From Candidatus Edwardsbacteria bacterium RifOxyA12_full_54_48 (lineage in GTDB: Bacteria > Edwardsbacteria > AC1 > EtOH8), in NCBI GenBank assembly GCA_001777915.1, contig MFFN01000004.1:124001-188000 (forward strand): a DNA stretch of 64,000 nt. The letters are read 5' to 3'. Made by a program: the position numbers and the translations under genes. The first letter of the stretch is position 1, and each line of letters opens with the position of its first letter. The notes under the pieces are model-generated. The model was not told the DNA's origin. It saw only the letters and a list, made by a program, of their open reading frames with translations, and did not search any database. Positions 45,761 through 58,261 of the stretch are shown here, piece by piece.

Positions 45761-45787
45761 AAGCGCCCCGGCATAACCGGGGCGCTT
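45761..45787 (-). terminator. Terminator of the Lys-rich micro-gene pair
   Basis: Arms AAGCGCCCCGG and CCGGGGCGCTT (11 bp, perfect) with a 5-nt loop; the minus strand continues with TTGTTGTTTTC. It is 24 bases after the second micro-gene's stop. Confidence 0.8.
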
Positions 45788-45811: not shown

Positions 45812-45877
45812 TTATTTTTTCTTCTTCTTGACGACCTTCTTGGTGGCTTTCTTGACGGCTTTCTTCTTTACTGGCAT
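45812..45877 (-). CDS. Lys-rich histone H1-like micropeptide 2 (21 aa)
   Basis: A 21-residue peptide, MPVKKKAVKKATKKV followed by VKKKKK. It is built from K-K-A/V-x units like the tails of histone H1 and bacterial HctB/AlgP-type proteins. AGGGAG lies 7-8 nt before ATG 45877. It is far below normal gene-calling length, but its twin at 45935-46009 with the same layout, the shared promoter and the terminator support it. A DNA- or RNA-binding role is inferred from charge alone. Confidence 0.65.
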   Translation of the reverse strand: MPVKKKAVKKATKKVVKKKKK

Positions 45878-45934
45878 GTTGATTCTCCCTTTAATGTTAT
45901 TTATGGTTTTGAAGCACTCATGCTAGTCACGCAA

Positions 45935-46009
45935 TTATTTTTTCTTCTTAGCAACCTTCTTTACCGCCTTCTTGACTACCTTCTTAGCAGCTTTCTTTGC
46001 ACAAGCCAT
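45935..46009 (-). CDS. Lys-rich histone H1-like micropeptide 1 (24 aa)
   Basis: A 24-residue peptide, MACAKKAAKKVVKKAVKK then VAKKKK. Except for one Cys at position 3 it consists of Lys, Ala and Val in KK-doublet periodicity. The Shine-Dalgarno AGGAGGTGA before ATG 46009 is a full complement of the 16S 3' end. The gene is preceded by a near-consensus promoter and followed by a second, similar micro-gene. It could neutralise and compact nucleic acid, or be a small ribosome- or membrane-associated peptide; this is inference. Confidence 0.7.
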   Translation of the reverse strand: MACAKKAAKKVVKKAVKKVAKKKK

Positions 46010-46018
46010 TATTTTCAC

Positions 46019-46035
46019 CTCCTTTTTTTTAGGAG
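46019..46035 (-). promoter_or_regulatory. Possible hairpin masking the micro-gene ribosome binding site
   Basis: In the minus-strand mRNA, CTCCT (46035-46031) can pair with AGGAG (46023-46019) of the Shine-Dalgarno across a seven-A loop. The 5-bp stem is weak and could be temperature- or factor-sensitive. Confidence 0.35.
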
Positions 46036-46099
46036 CCGGTTTTTGATCGGCACCCAAAATAATAAAACCTTTTTTATAATCTTGTGTTATTTGTTTATA

Positions 46100-46127
46100 A
46101 ATATACAACATATTGTATTTTTGTCAA
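46100..46127 (-). promoter_or_regulatory. Strong promoter of the Lys-rich micro-genes
   Basis: Perfect TTGACA (46127-46122), 16 bp and TATATT (46105-46100), in very AT-rich sequence. The leader is about 85 nt. Confidence 0.75.
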
Positions 46128-46255
46128 GAATATTTTTTGCAAAAATTTATTTATTTTTGATTAGATTTTAATGAATTCTTACTAAGCTTGAAAAATCCTT
46201 TAAAATCAATGCTTTACAAGCTCTATGATTGTTTATAGCTGATTATAGATAAAAT

Positions 46256-46291
46256 AATATCCACAACACAATATATTGTGTTGTGGATATT
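46256..46291. repeat. Perfect 36-bp palindrome with inverted DnaA-box-like ends
   Basis: Two 18-bp arms match perfectly about the centre 46273/46274. Each arm holds ATATCCACA, one mismatch from the DnaA box TTATCCACA, in inverted orientation. It lies in the 417-bp AT-rich gap between micro-gene 1 and the polysaccharide deacetylase; the rest of that gap (about 46130-46426) shows no gene. It could be a protein-binding site, a cruciform or a terminator for the deacetylase gene. Confidence 0.6.
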
Positions 46292-46426
46292 AAAATCCTG
46301 TTTTTATAAGATTTTTTTTTAAATAGTTGCCAAACCCTTTAATACCAATATGTTCAATGTCTTTAGATTTTAAAATAAGTTCGCAAGTATTGTAAATACT
46401 GCATCTTACGGGTTTGGGGAAATTTA

Positions 46427-48644: not shown

Positions 48645-49462
48645 CGCTGGTCCGCCTTAAAAATGTTATATAGCTTGACGAATTCACTCAGGTTCATCGT
48701 CTCAGCTCTCCGGGTAAGATCGACCTCGTCCGATATTCGATTGCCGATCACCTCCCATTTATTATGCTGTTTAAGCACCGAGCGCAGCATCTTTCTCCTC
48801 TGGGAAAAACATAATCTCACAAAATTGAAAAAGTCAGCTTCCCCCTCCAGTGTCACCGGCGGATTTTTATGCGGTGTTAATTTTATCACCGATGATGTTA
48901 TCTTGGGCTTGGGGAAAAAGGAGCCGGGCAATACGTTGAATAATTTTTCTACCTTCAGATGATATTGAACGAATACCGATAGCGAGCCGTAATCCTTGCT
49001 GCCGGGTTTGGCTGATAGGCGCTCGGCCATCTCCTTTTGAACCATCACTATTATGCTGGCAATATGCTGGCGGCAGTCTATCAGTTTTTCCAGGATGGGA
49101 ACCGTTATATTATAAGGCAGGTTGGCCACTACCCTGAATGGCCTATCGGATTCTTTTATCATTTCATCAAGATCATATTGTAGGATATCATGATTGACGA
49201 TCTTGATTTTTTCGTTTTGTCCGAACATTGTTGTCAGGGTTTCTACCAGCCGGGGATCTATCTCCACCGCCCAAACTTTGCGGCACCGGTCGGTCATTAG
49301 TGCTGTCAACACGCCCTTGCCTGGCCCGATCTCCAGCACCGTCTCGTTTGATCCCAGCTCGGCGGCATTTACGATTCTTTCGGCCACCGCCGGCGAGATC
49401 AGAAAATTTTGGCCGTATTTTTTCTGGGGAGATAAGCTTTTGTTAAATGATACGCTTCCCAC
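48641..49462 (-). CDS. rsmA: 16S rRNA dimethyladenosine transferase
   Basis: A 273-residue SAM enzyme that dimethylates A1518 and A1519 of 16S rRNA. KKYGQNFL opens the conserved core; VLEIGPGKGVLT is the SAM motif and VVANLPYNITVPI the NLPY catalytic motif. A GTG start at 49462 overlaps the stop codon of the TatD-radical SAM gene. It is coupled at its 3' end to the UbiA-like gene. Confidence 0.93.
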   Translation of the reverse strand: MGSVSFNKSLSPQKKYGQNFLISPAVAERIVNAAELGSNETVLEIGPGKGVLTALMTDRCRKVWAVEIDPRLVETLTTMFGQNEKIKIVNHDILQYDLDEMIKESDRPFRVVANLPYNITVPILEKLIDCRQHIASIIVMVQKEMAERLSAKPGSKDYGSLSVFVQYHLKVEKLFNVLPGSFFPKPKITSSVIKLTPHKNPPVTLEGEADFFNFVRLCFSQRRKMLRSVLKQHNKWEVIGNRISDEVDLTRRAETMNLSEFVKLYNIFKADQR

Positions 49463-50847
49463 TATCCCACCACATCGTAATGTCTGACGCGGATAGTGAC
49501 CCCCAGCTTCTGGGCTGTCTGTTCAGCCAGTTCAAGATCCACCCCTGGCATATCCATCACCGTCACCGTGGTTTTTATTCCCACCATCCGGCAACCCCTG
49601 GCAAAATCAAGCAACGCCACAAAGGCTTTATCGGAGAACCGGCTGGGGCATATCCTGTCGTAGGTCTCCTGGTCCCCGGCATTAAGGCTGATGGAGACCT
49701 CATCTATCAATCCTTTTAATTCAGGAATTATATCACGTCCGGCGATCAGGTTGCCATGCCCGTTGGTGTTTATCCGCACCTGGGCATTTTTGCTTTTAAG
49801 CCAGCCGGCCACTTGTTTAACCAGATCCAGCCGTAACATCGGCTCGCCGTAGCCGCAGAAGACCACCTCCCGGTATTTTGACGGGTCACCGATGGCAGCT
49901 ATCACCTCCTGAAAAGTTGGCTCCCTTTCCAGCCTTAGGTTATGCCCCTTGATGAAATCTGTCTTCTGCCGGATGCAAAACACACAGGCATTGGTGCAGC
50001 GGTTTGTGATATTCAGATAAAGCGAGTTCCTTATTTGATAAGCGATCTTGGCCGGGTCTATTCTTCCGATATTGAAGAACTTCTTGGCATTAAGAGTGGT
50101 AACGCGGCAGATATCATCATAAGTGAGTGGGGCCAGTAATTCCGTTATCTTTTGGGCGATGATGGGCAAATAAGCCGGTTCGTTACGCTGGCCGCGATGC
50201 GGGGCAGGAGCCAAATATGGGCAATCGGTCTCCAGCATCAGGTTCTCCAGCTCAACCGTTTTAAGCACTTCGGGAAGGTGTTTGGAATTCTTGAAGGTGA
50301 CCGGACCTCCAACCGATAGAAGATATTCCCTTTGCTTGGCCTCTATAGCCATCTCGGCATCTCCGGCAAAGCAATGGAGAACAACCTTGAGATCAGAGTG
50401 TCCCTTCAGGATATCCATCGTCTCTTGATGAGCGTCGCGATCATGAACTACCACCGGCAAGTTCAGGGTCTCCGCCCAAACCAGCTGTTTATTGAAAGCT
50501 TCTATCTGGATTTCTTTGGGGGATAGGTTCCGGTGGAAATCCAGCCCCATCTCTCCGATGGCCACAACCTTGGGATTCTTGGCCAAAGACTCCAACTCTT
50601 TGAATGTTTTTTCATCCAACGTTTTGGCGTCATGGGGATGGATGCCCACCGCAGCATAGCAGCAATCATATTTCTCGGCCAGCTCCACCGAAGCGATACT
50701 GGTCTTCAGGTCGTAGCCGATGTTTATGATGTATTCAACGTCTGCATCCTGCGCTCTATTGATCACCTGATCCCGGTCGTTCTTGAAGTCGCTTTTGGTC
50801 AGGTGGGCGTGGGTGTCGATGATTTTTATTTTATCAGGCCCGTTCAT
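49462..50847 (-). CDS. TatD hydrolase fused to a TatD-associated radical SAM domain
   Basis: A 461-residue two-domain protein. Residues 1 to about 255 are a TatD-type metal-dependent nuclease with IIDTHAHL, GIHPHDA, GEMGLDFH, VVHDRDAH and ETDCPYLAPAPHRG. Residues 270-460 are a radical SAM domain with CTNACVFC (CxxxCxxC) and CGYGEPMLR for SAM. In other bacteria the two are often neighbouring genes; here they form one chain, which argues for joint action. The true substrate of the radical domain is unknown. ATG 50847 is used. It is upstream of ksgA. Confidence 0.9.
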   Translation of the reverse strand: MNGPDKIKIIDTHAHLTKSDFKNDRDQVINRAQDADVEYIINIGYDLKTSIASVELAEKYDCCYAAVGIHPHDAKTLDEKTFKELESLAKNPKVVAIGEMGLDFHRNLSPKEIQIEAFNKQLVWAETLNLPVVVHDRDAHQETMDILKGHSDLKVVLHCFAGDAEMAIEAKQREYLLSVGGPVTFKNSKHLPEVLKTVELENLMLETDCPYLAPAPHRGQRNEPAYLPIIAQKITELLAPLTYDDICRVTTLNAKKFFNIGRIDPAKIAYQIRNSLYLNITNRCTNACVFCIRQKTDFIKGHNLRLEREPTFQEVIAAIGDPSKYREVVFCGYGEPMLRLDLVKQVAGWLKSKNAQVRINTNGHGNLIAGRDIIPELKGLIDEVSISLNAGDQETYDRICPSRFSDKAFVALLDFARGCRMVGIKTTVTVMDMPGVDLELAEQTAQKLGVTIRVRHYDVVG

Positions 50848-50853
50848 CAAATC

Positions 50854-51861: not shown

Positions 51862-54800
51862 TCACCTGAGCAGGGTCAGTCGCTTCATGAAATTGGACTG
51901 GCCGATCTTTAGGTTGACAAAATATACCCCGGTGGACAGTTTTCGGCCATTATCATCGGACCCGTCCCAGCCGGCCTCATAGGAGCCGGAACCCTTGAGG
52001 CCCAAATTCCTGGTGTGGACGGCCTGCCCAACGATATTATAGACGGTCAGATTGACCTCGGCATTGCCTGGGCCCACCTGATAGCATATTCTGGCAGAGG
52101 AGCTGAACGGACTGGGGCCGCAGGAGATAAGCCTTGATAGCAAAGAAGCAGGAGTTCCGCTGGCCACCATCACCGGCCCATAATAAGCAATACTTCCGTC
52201 GTCATCGATCTGGGCCAGGCGGTAATAATATTGAGCATTATATCCGGCGTTGTTATCGATCCATTGATACTGGTGGGGCTGGCCGTAGGCTTCGATCTCG
52301 CCAGTTAAACGATAGGGGCCTGCCGAGAGGGTCGATCTCTCTATCCTCCAGCTATCGGTGGCGGATTCATAGGATGTGATCCATTTAAGCACCACCTTCC
52401 CGTTCTCCAATGCCCCGGCAAACGAAGCCAGCTGCACCGGCAGGGGGTTGGCGGCGTCGCTGACCGTCCAGGCCGAGAACGAGGTCACGTTTTCGGTGAT
52501 GGACCTGCTGGAGGAAGCATCCTGGGGGCTGAAGGCTACGGTCCAGGTGCTCCCGCCGTCCAGGCTCTTCCACAGCTGTGCGGTGGTCAGATCCCGGCCG
52601 TTATCGTCGTCGGAAACCCAGGACAGCGTCAGGCTCCTTCCGCCGGATGGTGGGTTGTCGGAGGTGATGTTCCATTTGCGGGCGATGCTGGTGTCGGCGT
52701 CGGCTCCGGTTATGCTGGCCACCGCCTGGCCGGCCGTTCCCGAGATGCGGGTCAGGTTGACCGTCCCCAGATCATCGGCCCCCGAGTTTAGCGACACCCC
52801 TGCCCCGCCGAAGCTGGAGCTCCCGGTGCCCACCGCCCTTGAGGTCAGCAGTTTCCCGATCACGTAGCGGCCTGCCTGTTCCCCGCTTAGGGTGGCGCTG
52901 GAGCCCAGGATCAGCGAGTCGATCCCGGTGTTCAGGTTGCCGTTATTCAAAGTCAATGAACTTTCGACCGTAGTAGTGGTATCCATGGTAACGTTGTTCG
53001 AGTTGTTGATTCTGATGTTGGGCATCACTGTCAGCAGCTCCTGGCGGGTATGCTGGGCGGATGTCCCGGCATATTCCAGGGTGGCCCCGTTGGCATACTG
53101 CAGAACACCGGCCACGCCGTGCCCCAGATAATAGCTGCTCCTGAACACCGCTCCGTTGTTGACCAGTATGCTGTCCCCGGCGATGCTCGATCCGTAAAGT
53201 TCCAATATGCCGTCCACTGCTATTCTGCGGCAGGTGGCCGAGCCGGACGAGGTGCGGGATATGTTTCGGGCTATCAGCGAGGCTCCTGTCGCCACCGAGA
53301 GGGTCCCGGTGGAAACCAGGCCCGAGTCGGCCCGGACGTCCCCCCCCCTGAAAACGCCGGAGGACATGATGATATCGGCGGCCTTGATGTTCTTGGAGGA
53401 CGTCCCGGTGTCACCGGGGGCCAGGGCCACCTCCATCCGCCACCTGGTGCCGTAGGCTCCCCAGTTGTCGCCGAACAGGATCCGGGCGCCGCCCACGAAT
53501 CTGAGTCGTCCCGAGTTGCAGCGGATCAGATAATCGTTCAGGGTCACACCGTCGGCGTTGAGCATCCCATGGACCGCCAGGGTGTAATTGTCGATGTCCA
53601 GCCTGGTCCCGTAATTGGCCCCCAGAAAAGTGGCGTTTTTGCAGGAGCCATCGGCATCGACGGTGATGGTGTCGCTGCTCCGGATGATTATGTTATTGGT
53701 GGAACAGGGCGGCTGGCTGGCGGCTCCCCAGACGGTCCCGTTGTAAGTCTCCCATGACGAAAGGTCCGTCCAGGTCCCGGTCTTCAGCGACCGGTAATCC
53801 CCGGCATCGAAATGCTCGGTGGTCAGCTGGCTGTCGACCGCCGGGCTTAAGGTCAGGTAATTCTCCGTGCCCCCCGAGCCATTGTACTCATATATTGCAA
53901 AATGATAGGTGGTGTTGGGGGCCAACCCCAGGATTGTGTCGCAGTTCCCGCTACCGGAGTAAACGGTATAGTTCCCGGTGCCGATCTCCTGTCCCATCAG
54001 ATATGTGGAGCTGGGGAAATAACTGTTGCCATCCACCGGATCGGCGTCCACCGGGCTGCCCTGCTGGATCAGCACTATCCGGGCGCTGCCATTGCCGTTG
54101 GTCCAGCTGATGATCAGCTGGTTCTCGGAGACTTCGCTGAAGACGATATTGCTGGCCTGAACGCTGGGCGCCCCGCCGATGGCTCCAAAGCTGATGGTGG
54201 TGTCCGGAGCCAGGCCGGAGGCCGAGGCCTCGATGGTCAGGCCGGACTCGGCCAGGTCGTACTGCAGGTCGCTCCAGGCCCTTAATCCCGAAGCCAGGCT
54301 CTGGGTCAGTCCGGCTGCCGAGGTCAGATTTCCCGTCCCGCCCAGCAGGGTCAGAGTGGTGCTATTGGTCGCATCCAGATCGCGGTTGCCGTTGCCGTCG
54401 GCTGCCTCAACCGATAACCCAAAGTCGACACTGACGTCAACTGAAGCTGGAGGTTCTGAAGAAATGTTGAGCCTGGTGGCTGTCACAGTGATGGCATTGT
54501 TGGAAGCGCCGGATTCCACCGCCGTGCCAGCGCCGCTGGCGAAGGGGGTGCCGGCGGCGTCCACCGTGAAGCTGGTTCGGTCCACCTTGAGGGCCAGGTT
54601 GTTGTTGTCGATGGTGGCCTTGAGCGCGCCCAGGTCGCCCTTAAGCCAAAGCTTCAATTGATATGTCTTGCTGCCGTTATCTGTCACTTCGCCCAGTTTG
54701 CCTGCTGAATGGTCGATGCCGGAGAAGACGATGCTGTCGGCATAGATCGTGCCCGAGGACGAATCGGCCGAACCGTCGAACAGCTTTACCCCGTCAATCA

Positions 54801-55737
54801 CGCCCGACCAATTGATTATATCGTTCCCGGTCCCTTTGGCAATGATGATCTTTTCGATCAAAGTATTTAAGGCGTCGCCCCCGGTGGAATCATCCTTGAC
54901 CCGGAAATCGAAATTAAGCACCTTCTCGGCATCGCTGTCCAACAGGGCCGAAATTGAGGCCGGCTCGGCGCCCGCACCGATGCTGACGTCGGAGCCTCCG
55001 GAGACGGCAGGAACAATATCCGTCCATGAGGTGCCGATCCGAATACCGTCCACCGTGATCCTCTGGGCGGCGTTATACTGCCGCAAAGCGATGGTACCCA
55101 GTTCGGCAGCATCGGCGCCCACGGCACCTATGGGGCCGATGGCGGGGGTGGCCGGCTCCGAGGACGGGACCCCCGATGATATCACATAAAGGCACAGGCT
55201 GTCGTTGGTGGTCGATCCAGTATAGAACGTGTACTTCAAGACAACCAGGTATGTGGTGCCGTAGGAATAATTGTTATCTGTGTAGACTGCCGTCTCGGTG
55301 GTTTTCTGCAACCCGAATTCGAGATTGCTTCCGGCATCGTTAGTCACGTTGACCCGTCCCAGAAAGGTCGTTCCAATCGGATTGGGACCCAAATGCAGGA
55401 AATATCCCGTTGGAGCGCCGCCCGACGCCACATTGACCAGAAATGACGCATAGACCGATCCGCTGGTTATCCCCGCATCAAAGGTGCGGCTCACATCTTC
55501 CCCAGTGCTGTCCACCGAGGCGGCGTTGCCGATGCCAGAGGAGGCGTAGTCGGTATAGCTAAGGCCCCCCGAAGACACCGTAATGGGGTTAGAACCAGCG
55601 CTGCTGTGAGCGGTCCATCCGTTATCGGTCAGATTGGTGCCGGCGGTATAATCGAAATTATCTACCAGCAATTGCCCTTGGGCATACGGGGTCAGCATCA
55701 AACCGCCCAATATGGCCATCAACACATATTTTTTCAT
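51862..55737 (-). CDS. Giant secreted protein with C-terminal sorting domain
   Basis: A 1291-residue exported protein. A signal peptide (MKKYVLMAILGGLMLTPYA) precedes a concanavalin-like region at about 20-240. Fibronectin-III-like segments follow around 530-640 (NIVFSEVSENQLIISW). A parallel-beta/filament-like stretch occupies about 660-990 with many short repeats. The final 90 residues form the FlgD-like/Por sorting domain (CGPSPFSSSARICYQV, LSTGVYFVNL). This layout is typical of Bacteroidota-type T9SS cargo and of similar proteins in candidate phyla. No enzymatic motif was found, so it is probably adhesive. Confidence 0.82.
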   Translation of the reverse strand: MKKYVLMAILGGLMLTPYAQGQLLVDNFDYTAGTNLTDNGWTAHSSAGSNPITVSSGGLSYTDYASSGIGNAASVDSTGEDVSRTFDAGITSGSVYASFLVNVASGGAPTGYFLHLGPNPIGTTFLGRVNVTNDAGSNLEFGLQKTTETAVYTDNNYSYGTTYLVVLKYTFYTGSTTNDSLCLYVISSGVPSSEPATPAIGPIGAVGADAAELGTIALRQYNAAQRITVDGIRIGTSWTDIVPAVSGGSDVSIGAGAEPASISALLDSDAEKVLNFDFRVKDDSTGGDALNTLIEKIIIAKGTGNDIINWSGVIDGVKLFDGSADSSSGTIYADSIVFSGIDHSAGKLGEVTDNGSKTYQLKLWLKGDLGALKATIDNNNLALKVDRTSFTVDAAGTPFASGAGTAVESGASNNAITVTATRLNISSEPPASVDVSVDFGLSVEAADGNGNRDLDATNSTTLTLLGGTGNLTSAAGLTQSLASGLRAWSDLQYDLAESGLTIEASASGLAPDTTISFGAIGGAPSVQASNIVFSEVSENQLIISWTNGNGSARIVLIQQGSPVDADPVDGNSYFPSSTYLMGQEIGTGNYTVYSGSGNCDTILGLAPNTTYHFAIYEYNGSGGTENYLTLSPAVDSQLTTEHFDAGDYRSLKTGTWTDLSSWETYNGTVWGAASQPPCSTNNIIIRSSDTITVDADGSCKNATFLGANYGTRLDIDNYTLAVHGMLNADGVTLNDYLIRCNSGRLRFVGGARILFGDNWGAYGTRWRMEVALAPGDTGTSSKNIKAADIIMSSGVFRGGDVRADSGLVSTGTLSVATGASLIARNISRTSSGSATCRRIAVDGILELYGSSIAGDSILVNNGAVFRSSYYLGHGVAGVLQYANGATLEYAGTSAQHTRQELLTVMPNIRINNSNNVTMDTTTTVESSLTLNNGNLNTGIDSLILGSSATLSGEQAGRYVIGKLLTSRAVGTGSSSFGGAGVSLNSGADDLGTVNLTRISGTAGQAVASITGADADTSIARKWNITSDNPPSGGRSLTLSWVSDDDNGRDLTTAQLWKSLDGGSTWTVAFSPQDASSSRSITENVTSFSAWTVSDAANPLPVQLASFAGALENGKVVLKWITSYESATDSWRIERSTLSAGPYRLTGEIEAYGQPHQYQWIDNNAGYNAQYYYRLAQIDDDGSIAYYGPVMVASGTPASLLSRLISCGPSPFSSSARICYQVGPGNAEVNLTVYNIVGQAVHTRNLGLKGSGSYEAGWDGSDDNGRKLSTGVYFVNLKIGQSNFMKRLTLLR

Positions 55738-55765: not shown

Positions 55766-58261
55766 TCATTTTATAAGTATGACCCTGCCATGCTGTTCGC
55801 TGCCGCCGGCCGCCAGCCTGAAGAAATACACTCCTGCCGGACAGGCCTTCCCGTCCTCTCCCCGGCCGTTCCAGTTGAAATAATTCTGTCCGGCCGGTCC
55901 ATTGTTTTCAGAGAAAGCCCTTACCAACCGTCCGGATACATTATAGATGTCCAGTTTTACAGAACCGGACTGAGGCAAATTATATCGAAAAGTTATATTG
56001 CTTTTAAAGGGGTTGGGGCTGCAGTTCACCCATCCGCCCGGATCATTTCCGGAAATACCCGGAGTTGCCGCGGCCCTCACTGGGCCATAAACAGCCGAGT
56101 CGCCGTTGATGTCCTTTTCCAGCAGACGATAGTAATAATCAACCCCCGTCAACACGTTCCTGTCGGTCCAACCGTAGTTGTGGATCTCGTTGCTGTTGCC
56201 GGCCGTCGGCAGGGAAACCATCAATTGGTAATAATTTAAAGAATCCAGAGACCGCCAGACCTGCCATTGGTAGCTGTTGATCTCGCTGGCGGTGACCCAC
56301 TTAAGCGTGATCTGGCCCGGCTCGCCCAGGGCGGTGAAATAGGCCAGCTCCACGCCCAAAGGATCGTTGGGGTTGGCCCCGCCGGGAGTGCCATAGGTGG
56401 CAGTGGTGCCGTTGGCGGCGTCTCCGTACCAGCTGGCGGGCAGGGTCCCGCTGGAAAACGGACGGCTGCGGTACTGGCAATAGTAAGTTCCAAAGGTGAT
56501 CGTTGAATCCACCAAAGCGTTGCCGGCATCCCGCAGACTGAAGGTTTCTCCGCCGTTCAATATCAAAGAGCCGACCAGGTTATAGGGAATACTGTAATAG
56601 TTGGACCAATTGCCGGTTGATGACCGAACCACGACGAAGTACCCGCCGGCTGTAATCTGGTCGCTTGCTCCAAAGGTGGTGGTATATGCGCTGCCATACT
56701 GCCTCAGTTGCCATCCGTTTAAACTGACCGTACCGGCAGTGTTGTTATATAATTCCACGTATTCATTCAAGTATCCGGGGATTGAACTGTTTTGTTCGTT
56801 CACTTCATTTATCACCACGGTGAACCCGCCGGCCGCCGTGGTGGCAAAGGTATTGTCCCCGGAATAGGTGGGTCCGTTGTTCATGGGATCGGTGGAGGAA
56901 ACCTTGTAATGATAGGTGGTTGAAGCCGCAAGGCCGGAAAGTTCCACCGAATGGCTGGTGACATCGCTTTCGTTCTTTGCCGTGTCGGAGTAAGTGGTGG
57001 TCAGGCCGTAGTAGACCCAGGAATTGGAGGCCTCGTCGGTGGTCCAATTAACCGTGGCCGAGGAGGAGGTGATACCATTGACTGTGGGTCCGGAGGCGAT
57101 TACCGGGGCGGTGACATCGTCATTGTCGCCCAGGGTCAGGGTGAGGACGCTGTCGGCGCCGATGGCGGCGCTGCTGCCGCCGGAAACGTTCCGCAGCTTG
57201 AATATCAGGGTCTCGGTGCCCTCCTCTAGGGCATCATCTGTGATGGTGATGCTTACGTTCTGGTTGGCCGAAGATCCCGCCGGAAAGCTTAGGGTCTGGG
57301 TGGTGTAACTGTTGATGTCTGCCGCGGTGCCGGATCCTCCGGTCAGTACAACTTGCACCGAGGTGGCGCTGCCGGCGCTGGGCGCGGAGATGGAGACCGC
57401 AATGTTGAAGGGGGCGTCCCCCTCTGCCTTGGTCACCGAAGTGGCGGCGAAATACACGCTGGTGTTCAGATATTCCGGGAAGTAGCAGCGGTCCACCAGC
57501 GAGCTGTCTATCACAAAGGGGTTGGGCTTGTTCTGCTGGTAGGCGGCTATCAGCCAAGTCCTCGTTTTTTCCAGGGCATCCGATGGGTCGGTAAGATGCC
57601 AATTCCGTAATGTATATTTCTGCCCTGTCCACCAAGCCAAGGTCGTATCGGGCAGTTGATACATAGTCAGCATGTAGAACATGGCTCGAGCTGTATTGCC
57701 TTTCTGAATTTCCCGCGGTTCGCAACTGGGCGTTCCAACGTTCAGGTTTACTTCAGCATAGCCGTCAATATTTGAAGACGGGATAGATGTGCTTCTTTCA
57801 ATATTCTTGTAGTACCAGTACTGGGTGCTGGCGTCAGATATTTCGGCAAAAGGAGAAGCACCCCTGTCAGCATTGACCAGTTGCCTGGTGGGGAACAGAT
57901 GATGCATATCACCTGTGGGATTTGGCGTCTGTGAAGTATTTAATAAACTCTGGGGCCACGTATGTTCACAATTTATATCATTGGCAAGCGCCTCATCATC
58001 CGGATCCTGCCCCGGTTGCATATAGATGATATAACCGCTGTAAACACATTCTAAACTGTCATTGGCGGTCAAGTATATTTCACCGAACAGGGTATCTCTA
58101 GGGTCTGGTGATCCTGCATATGCAAGTATTCTGGTGCTTTTGTAATATTTCCGCAATGAGTCTATCAGCGGGCGGCCGGTGACCCCAGGGAAAAGCTCGG
58201 CCGCCGATACCGAACCAAACGCCATCGCAAAAATAGCTATCGCTGTGAGTAATTTTTTCAT
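55766..58261 (-). CDS. Secreted endonuclease I with Calx-beta, FnIII, lamin-tail and sorting domains
   Basis: An 831-residue exported nuclease. After a signal peptide (about 1-20) the endonuclease I (EndA/NucM) domain spans roughly 25-265, with the catalytic signature NCEHTWPQSLL and DMHHLFPT. Then a Calx-beta-like domain (about 275-385), a fibronectin III domain (about 390-475), a lamin-tail domain (about 480-600; VVINEVNEQNS, EYVELYNN) and a sorting domain at 740-831 (CSPNPFKSNITFRYNLP) follow. It probably degrades extracellular DNA for nutrients. It sits 28 bases upstream of the giant secreted gene. Confidence 0.9.
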   Translation of the reverse strand: MKKLLTAIAIFAMAFGSVSAAELFPGVTGRPLIDSLRKYYKSTRILAYAGSPDPRDTLFGEIYLTANDSLECVYSGYIIYMQPGQDPDDEALANDINCEHTWPQSLLNTSQTPNPTGDMHHLFPTRQLVNADRGASPFAEISDASTQYWYYKNIERSTSIPSSNIDGYAEVNLNVGTPSCEPREIQKGNTARAMFYMLTMYQLPDTTLAWWTGQKYTLRNWHLTDPSDALEKTRTWLIAAYQQNKPNPFVIDSSLVDRCYFPEYLNTSVYFAATSVTKAEGDAPFNIAVSISAPSAGSATSVQVVLTGGSGTAADINSYTTQTLSFPAGSSANQNVSITITDDALEEGTETLIFKLRNVSGGSSAAIGADSVLTLTLGDNDDVTAPVIASGPTVNGITSSSATVNWTTDEASNSWVYYGLTTTYSDTAKNESDVTSHSVELSGLAASTTYHYKVSSTDPMNNGPTYSGDNTFATTAAGGFTVVINEVNEQNSSIPGYLNEYVELYNNTAGTVSLNGWQLRQYGSAYTTTFGASDQITAGGYFVVVRSSTGNWSNYYSIPYNLVGSLILNGGETFSLRDAGNALVDSTITFGTYYCQYRSRPFSSGTLPASWYGDAANGTTATYGTPGGANPNDPLGVELAYFTALGEPGQITLKWVTASEINSYQWQVWRSLDSLNYYQLMVSLPTAGNSNEIHNYGWTDRNVLTGVDYYYRLLEKDINGDSAVYGPVRAAATPGISGNDPGGWVNCSPNPFKSNITFRYNLPQSGSVKLDIYNVSGRLVRAFSENNGPAGQNYFNWNGRGEDGKACPAGVYFFRLAAGGSEQHGRVILIK

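Follow-up and report, generated by a model that had tools for sequence, protein, structure and literature searches.

Paired lysine-rich micropeptide genes behind a putative NrdR-type operator in Candidatus Edwardsbacteria

Cationic, low-complexity sequence of the KKAA or KKVA type and of variable length is known from Chlamydia Hc1/Hc2 and from the tails of Pseudomonas AlgP/PhaF, where it makes up domains or entire proteins some 100-350 aa long. In AlgP, these H1-like tails rich in Lys and Ala are DNA-binding (PMC9239181). The locus described here encodes sequence of the same kind, but as whole genes of 13-27 aa which are paired, one of them with an N-terminal Cys. Protamines and other sperm nuclear basic proteins are also small, highly cationic and Cys-containing; this likeness is by analogy only, and the present peptides differ in being bacterial and in having Lys for Arg, and DNA packaging by them would be a putative role. 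With respect to control, the closest described system is the NrdR regulon (nrd operons, topA). Its sites consist of two 16-bp palindromes each, set 15-16 bp apart and overlapping the RNA polymerase site (PMC12051234), and in P. aeruginosa NrdR also controls the DNA-topology gene topA via one box (PMC4409342). The micropeptide locus shares with this regulon a 16-bp palindrome over the promoter and the nrdR-nrdJ layout of its relatives, with a candidate second site beyond a 15-bp spacer. It differs in having a micropeptide operon as the target and only a half-match at the candidate second site, and no nrdR was found in its own genome. No description of such micropeptides was found in a limited search of the literature.

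The window analysed, a stretch of 64,000 nucleotides from Candidatus Edwardsbacteria bacterium RifOxyA12_full_54_48, carries on its minus strand micro-ORF 1 (46009..45935, 24 codons, peptide MACAKKAAKKVVKKAVKKVAKKKK) and micro-ORF 2 (45877..45812, 21 codons, peptide MPVKKKAVKKATKKVVKKKKK), exactly where the preliminary description had placed tandem ORFs of these lengths. The expression signals it had proposed were likewise located by promoter and terminator scans. The promoter, TTGACA-16-TATATT (46127..46100, minus), matches the consensus at 11/12 positions in the promoter scan, the Shine-Dalgarno sequence of ORF1 is AGGAGGTGA (46023..46015, minus) and an intrinsic terminator with a 12-bp stem lies 3' of ORF2 (45787..45761, minus); the latter two are kept in relatives. 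The Shine-Dalgarno sequence of ORF2, GGGAG (45889..45885, minus), is weaker than that of ORF1 and is AGGAGG in genera g2 and g4. Lys makes up 12/24 residues of peptide 1 and 12/21 of peptide 2, in low-complexity sequence of the KKxx type, and the two are the sole ORFs of the window with at least 42% Lys plus a ribosome site. A 400 kb sample of the same genome held two short, unrelated ORFs of such Lys content, both without a ribosome site, and none of 20 Markov-simulated windows yielded a comparable ORF, in agreement with the earlier argument that random sequence would not produce the pair. The name histone H1-like given to the peptides holds only as a description of composition; no family model matched either of them at E<=0.01 (Pfam) or E<=10 (NCBIfam), HC2/histone-H1-like models included.

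Conservation was examined in ten genomes of the phylum, all of one family, among them that of the window (G000; 2.74 Mb, 9 contigs, 100% complete). The preliminary description had made its case depend on a conserved reading frame in relatives, and the whole pair recurs in seven of the nine other genomes (G002, G003, G004, G006, G007, G008 and G009). In G001 the promoter is present and the contig ends at the ribosome site, and G005 (89% complete) gave no match to the promoter. Records with the same locus are those of Candidatus Edwardsbacteria and of a UBP2 genome. In orthologues, peptide 1 is 16-27 aa long and peptide 2 is 13-24 aa long; the length differences of both are always whole codons, while the untranslated spacing is free to vary. 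Differences at first, second and third codon positions numbered 47/53/224 in ORF1 and 22/51/102 in ORF2, summed over all genome pairs, which are not independent of each other. The same third-position bias is seen in ORF1 of close pairs, for example G000 and G003 (0/1/4). ORF2 hardly varies among close relatives; a comparison of G000 with G002 shows five changed codons, every one of them an exchange of residues within the set Ala, Val and Thr. Lys is retained throughout, peptide 2 always starts MP[AV]KKK and peptide 1 always M[AP]C, the N-terminal Cys being present in 8/8 complete orthologues. Their conservation, the length changes that stay in frame and the concentration of changes at third codon positions support the micro-ORFs as genuine short genes that profile libraries miss, and they evolve as coding sequence.

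The peptide 1 Cys, an NrdR-type operator and an upstream 38-bp palindrome are new with respect to the earlier reading. A block of 32 bp around the promoter is near-identical and single-copy in 9/10 genomes of the phylum. Within it, box 1 is an NrdR-box-like 16-bp palindrome (46103..46118, minus; ATACAATATGTTGTAT) that starts 3 bp after TTGACA and lies over the spacer and the -10 element. The consensus used here for scoring, acaCwAtATaTwGtgt, is reportedly that of Rodionov and Gelfand 2005, and box 1 agrees with it at 13-14/16 positions in all genomes. Box 2 (46072..46087, minus; ACACAAGATTATAAAA) follows 15 bp after box 1 and matches the NrdR box in its first half only, with an ACACAA half-site. 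This half-site, NYACAA ([AG][CT]ACAA), is found at exactly 15 bp in 9/9 Edwardsbacteria, and no other part of the leader is as well conserved.

In relatives, the gene that follows nrdR encodes an RNR-type ATP cone and is nrdJ by sequence inspection, and the nrdR-nrdJ promoters of eight of them combine TTGACA, a palindrome over the -10 element, 15-16 bp and YACAA. Compared at the sequence level, the micropeptide promoter is built like these. A weight matrix trained solely on the eight promoters, with the box register hand-set on the palindrome centre, was run over 819 kb of the window's genome and placed the micropeptide promoter 4th among all sites. It came 1st (16.0 vs 11.0) when TTGACA was required 1-5 bp upstream; with mis-registered boxes it had come 19th. 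In 1.5 Mb, a post hoc pattern made from the micropeptide and nrdR promoters matched those promoter types alone, and it had no match in 755 kb of the own genome or in 4 Mb of simulated AT-rich sequence. When box pairs were scored against the consensus without supervision, the Edwardsbacteria site did not stand out from chance partners. Outside the phylum, a Goldiibacteriota gene of 12 aa (MACKKKAKKKKK) has two boxes, ATACTATATATAGTAT and ATACTATATAATGTAT (box type ATACWATATATWGTAT), 15 bp apart over its -10 element. This pair scores 27/32 to the consensus, and no pair in 1 Mb of simulated Goldii-like sequence scored that well. The operator alone would offer a handle for finding further members.

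The gene for NrdR itself (TIGR00244) is present in 8/10 genomes of the phylum, including all three congeners of the window's genome. It was found neither in G005 nor in the window's own genome, which is 100% complete and has an intact operator, and the nrdR neighbourhood of a congener was absent from the contig ends of the latter. A recent loss or an assembly gap is possible. The operator may instead belong to another regulator that uses NrdR-like palindromes, in which case the coupling to dNTP synthesis would be accidental; this explanation is plausible, though on balance we lean against it. It would account for an intact site in a genome where NrdR was not found and for the conservation of box 2 by half only, but not as readily for the architecture shared with the relatives' nrdR-nrdJ promoters or for the paired boxes in Goldiibacteriota. 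As an account of how the operon is controlled, it is compatible with nucleic-acid binding by the peptides.

About 150 bp further upstream lies a perfect 38-bp palindrome (46255..46292, unstranded; TAATATCCACAACACAATATATTGTGTTGTGGATATTA) with DnaA-box-like arms TATCCACA around ACACAATATATTGTGT. Its core fits the NrdR consensus exactly, and it is single-copy and without mismatch in 4/4 genomes of the genus. In genus g4 the arms are kept and the core is changed, which makes a hairpin/terminator or another factor as likely an explanation, and the palindrome may instead serve the upstream gene as its terminator. A canonical NrdR pair formed by this palindrome and the promoter box was rejected, the two being about 145 bp apart as opposed to the known 14-17 or 24-27 bp. 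A replication origin at the locus was also rejected, as dnaA is 308 kb off and the GC skew changes sign elsewhere, near 480 kb.

The conserved upstream neighbour of the pair is a polysaccharide-deacetylase gene, with an mscS-like gene (assigned by sequence inspection) in between in other genera. Downstream, an ABC exporter follows in the window's genus, a LIM-like protein in g4 and feoB in g2, the last two assigned by sequence inspection. This variation by genus marks the micropeptide cassette as an independent, free-standing unit. No match to the pair was obtained among viral contigs or phage records, and a phage origin was discarded. Elsewhere in the window, a 462-aa ORF (49462-50850, minus) fuses a TatD-type DNase domain to a radical-SAM domain, and two large proteins (51862-55737 and 55766-58261, minus) have FlgD_ig-like C-terminal domains; the product of 55766-58261 also contains domains of the endonuclease I, lamin-tail and Por secretion-tail types.

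The reading we favour, with confidence evenly poised, is that the genes encode nucleic-acid-binding micropeptides, similar to a histone-H1 tail or protamine, from a free-standing operon under NrdR-type control and made in step with dNTP synthesis. Each of its two cistrons would yield a disordered micropeptide of strongly cationic character, and the two would coat or condense nucleic acid, in all likelihood DNA, much as a histone-H1 tail or protamine does; the Cys of peptide 1 could permit disulphide dimers or metal binding. NrdR, or a regulator sharing its site, would control transcription so that the peptides are made while dNTPs are made. Nucleic-acid coating is favoured by the composition, the lack of a fold family, the weak or absent amphipathicity and a promoter of the DNA-metabolism type; the likeness of this promoter to that of an RNR operon (nrdR-nrdJ) suggests DNA-coating peptides made in step with DNA synthesis. 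Inferred from these sequences are the level of translation, the binding of DNA by the peptides and of the operator by NrdR, and the physiological coupling. HU was found in 10/10 genomes, so that the peptides would act in addition to it, and the idea that they stand in for an absent HU was abandoned. More tentatively, one may speculate that the dATP/ATP-sensing RNR repressor NrdR also controls paired micro-histones of 13-27 residues, one with a Cys, and thereby couples chromosome coating to dNTP supply in several candidate phyla. Should this hold, as few as 13 residues would suffice for a complete nucleic-acid-coating protein, and such proteins would escape both profile libraries and length-limited gene callers. 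A conserved repressor would then tie their expression to the dNTP pool, a direct and testable link from DNA precursor supply to nucleoid packaging in uncultured phyla.

Composition alone cannot separate DNA binding from binding to RNA, polyphosphate or ribosomes. That the peptides bind one of the latter and not DNA, for instance as counter-ions or condensate formers, is rather unlikely but has several points in its favour, since many polyanions are bound by Lys-rich disordered tails, AlgP provides a precedent by its association with polyP granules (PMC9239181), and the strong ribosome sites and the terminator suggest abundant peptides. The nrdR-nrdJ-type promoter points to DNA metabolism instead. 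The promoter architecture shared with nrdR-nrdJ and the conserved Cys of peptide 1 would also suit small, NrdR-co-regulated inhibitors or chaperones of the ribonucleotide reductase NrdJ. We regard this as improbable, because length and Lys-rich sequence drift freely, unlike a specific interface, and there is no linkage to nrd genes.

The preliminary description had further considered membrane-active peptides. Two tandem cationic peptides with an ABC-transporter gene downstream in the window's genus might be taken for a secreted or membrane-active two-peptide bacteriocin or antimicrobial, but they have neither leader nor immunity gene. Helical amphipathicity is at most marginal in the window's genome and absent in relatives and the exporter is unlinked outside the genus, which weakens the membrane-active option and leaves the bacteriocin reading very improbable. 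A regulatory RNA or lysine-sensing leader, with the ORFs as mere stalling sites, would suit the runs of Lys codons ahead of a terminator. It is equally hard to credit, since the downstream genes vary by genus and none of them is a lysine gene, no Rfam family matched at the locus, and each ORF has its own ribosome site and third-position-biased changes.

Look-alikes outside the phylum were sought with the strict pattern M[AP]C(x)KK behind AGGAGGT in the genomes of 84,980 species. Besides Edwardsbacteria, the matches came from two genomes of one TA06-type phylum, from Endomicrobiales and from Goldiibacteriota. In a third genome of the TA06 type, MACAKKSAKKATKKTAKKKKK is accompanied by the same terminator motif. 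The Endomicrobiales match is a tandem pair, MACKKKAKKKKKKK then MAKKKKAKKKKKKK (L069:6712-6980), situated directly 3' of a folD-like gene and downstream of gyrB-gyrA-like genes. NrdR-type boxes were not found at the TA06-type and Endomicrobiales genes, and the strict type is not widespread in the phylum to which the Endomicrobiales genome belongs, occurring in only 1/199 genomes. Peptides so short and of such low complexity do not allow homology among the look-alikes to be told from convergence. Looser patterns recovered similar Lys-rich genes of 12-20 aa in a few of 386 diverse genomes. One further peptide of the same kind, MSCGKCGKKKAKKKKK (L147:1500-1560, genome G293), contains two Cys and has its own ribosome site.
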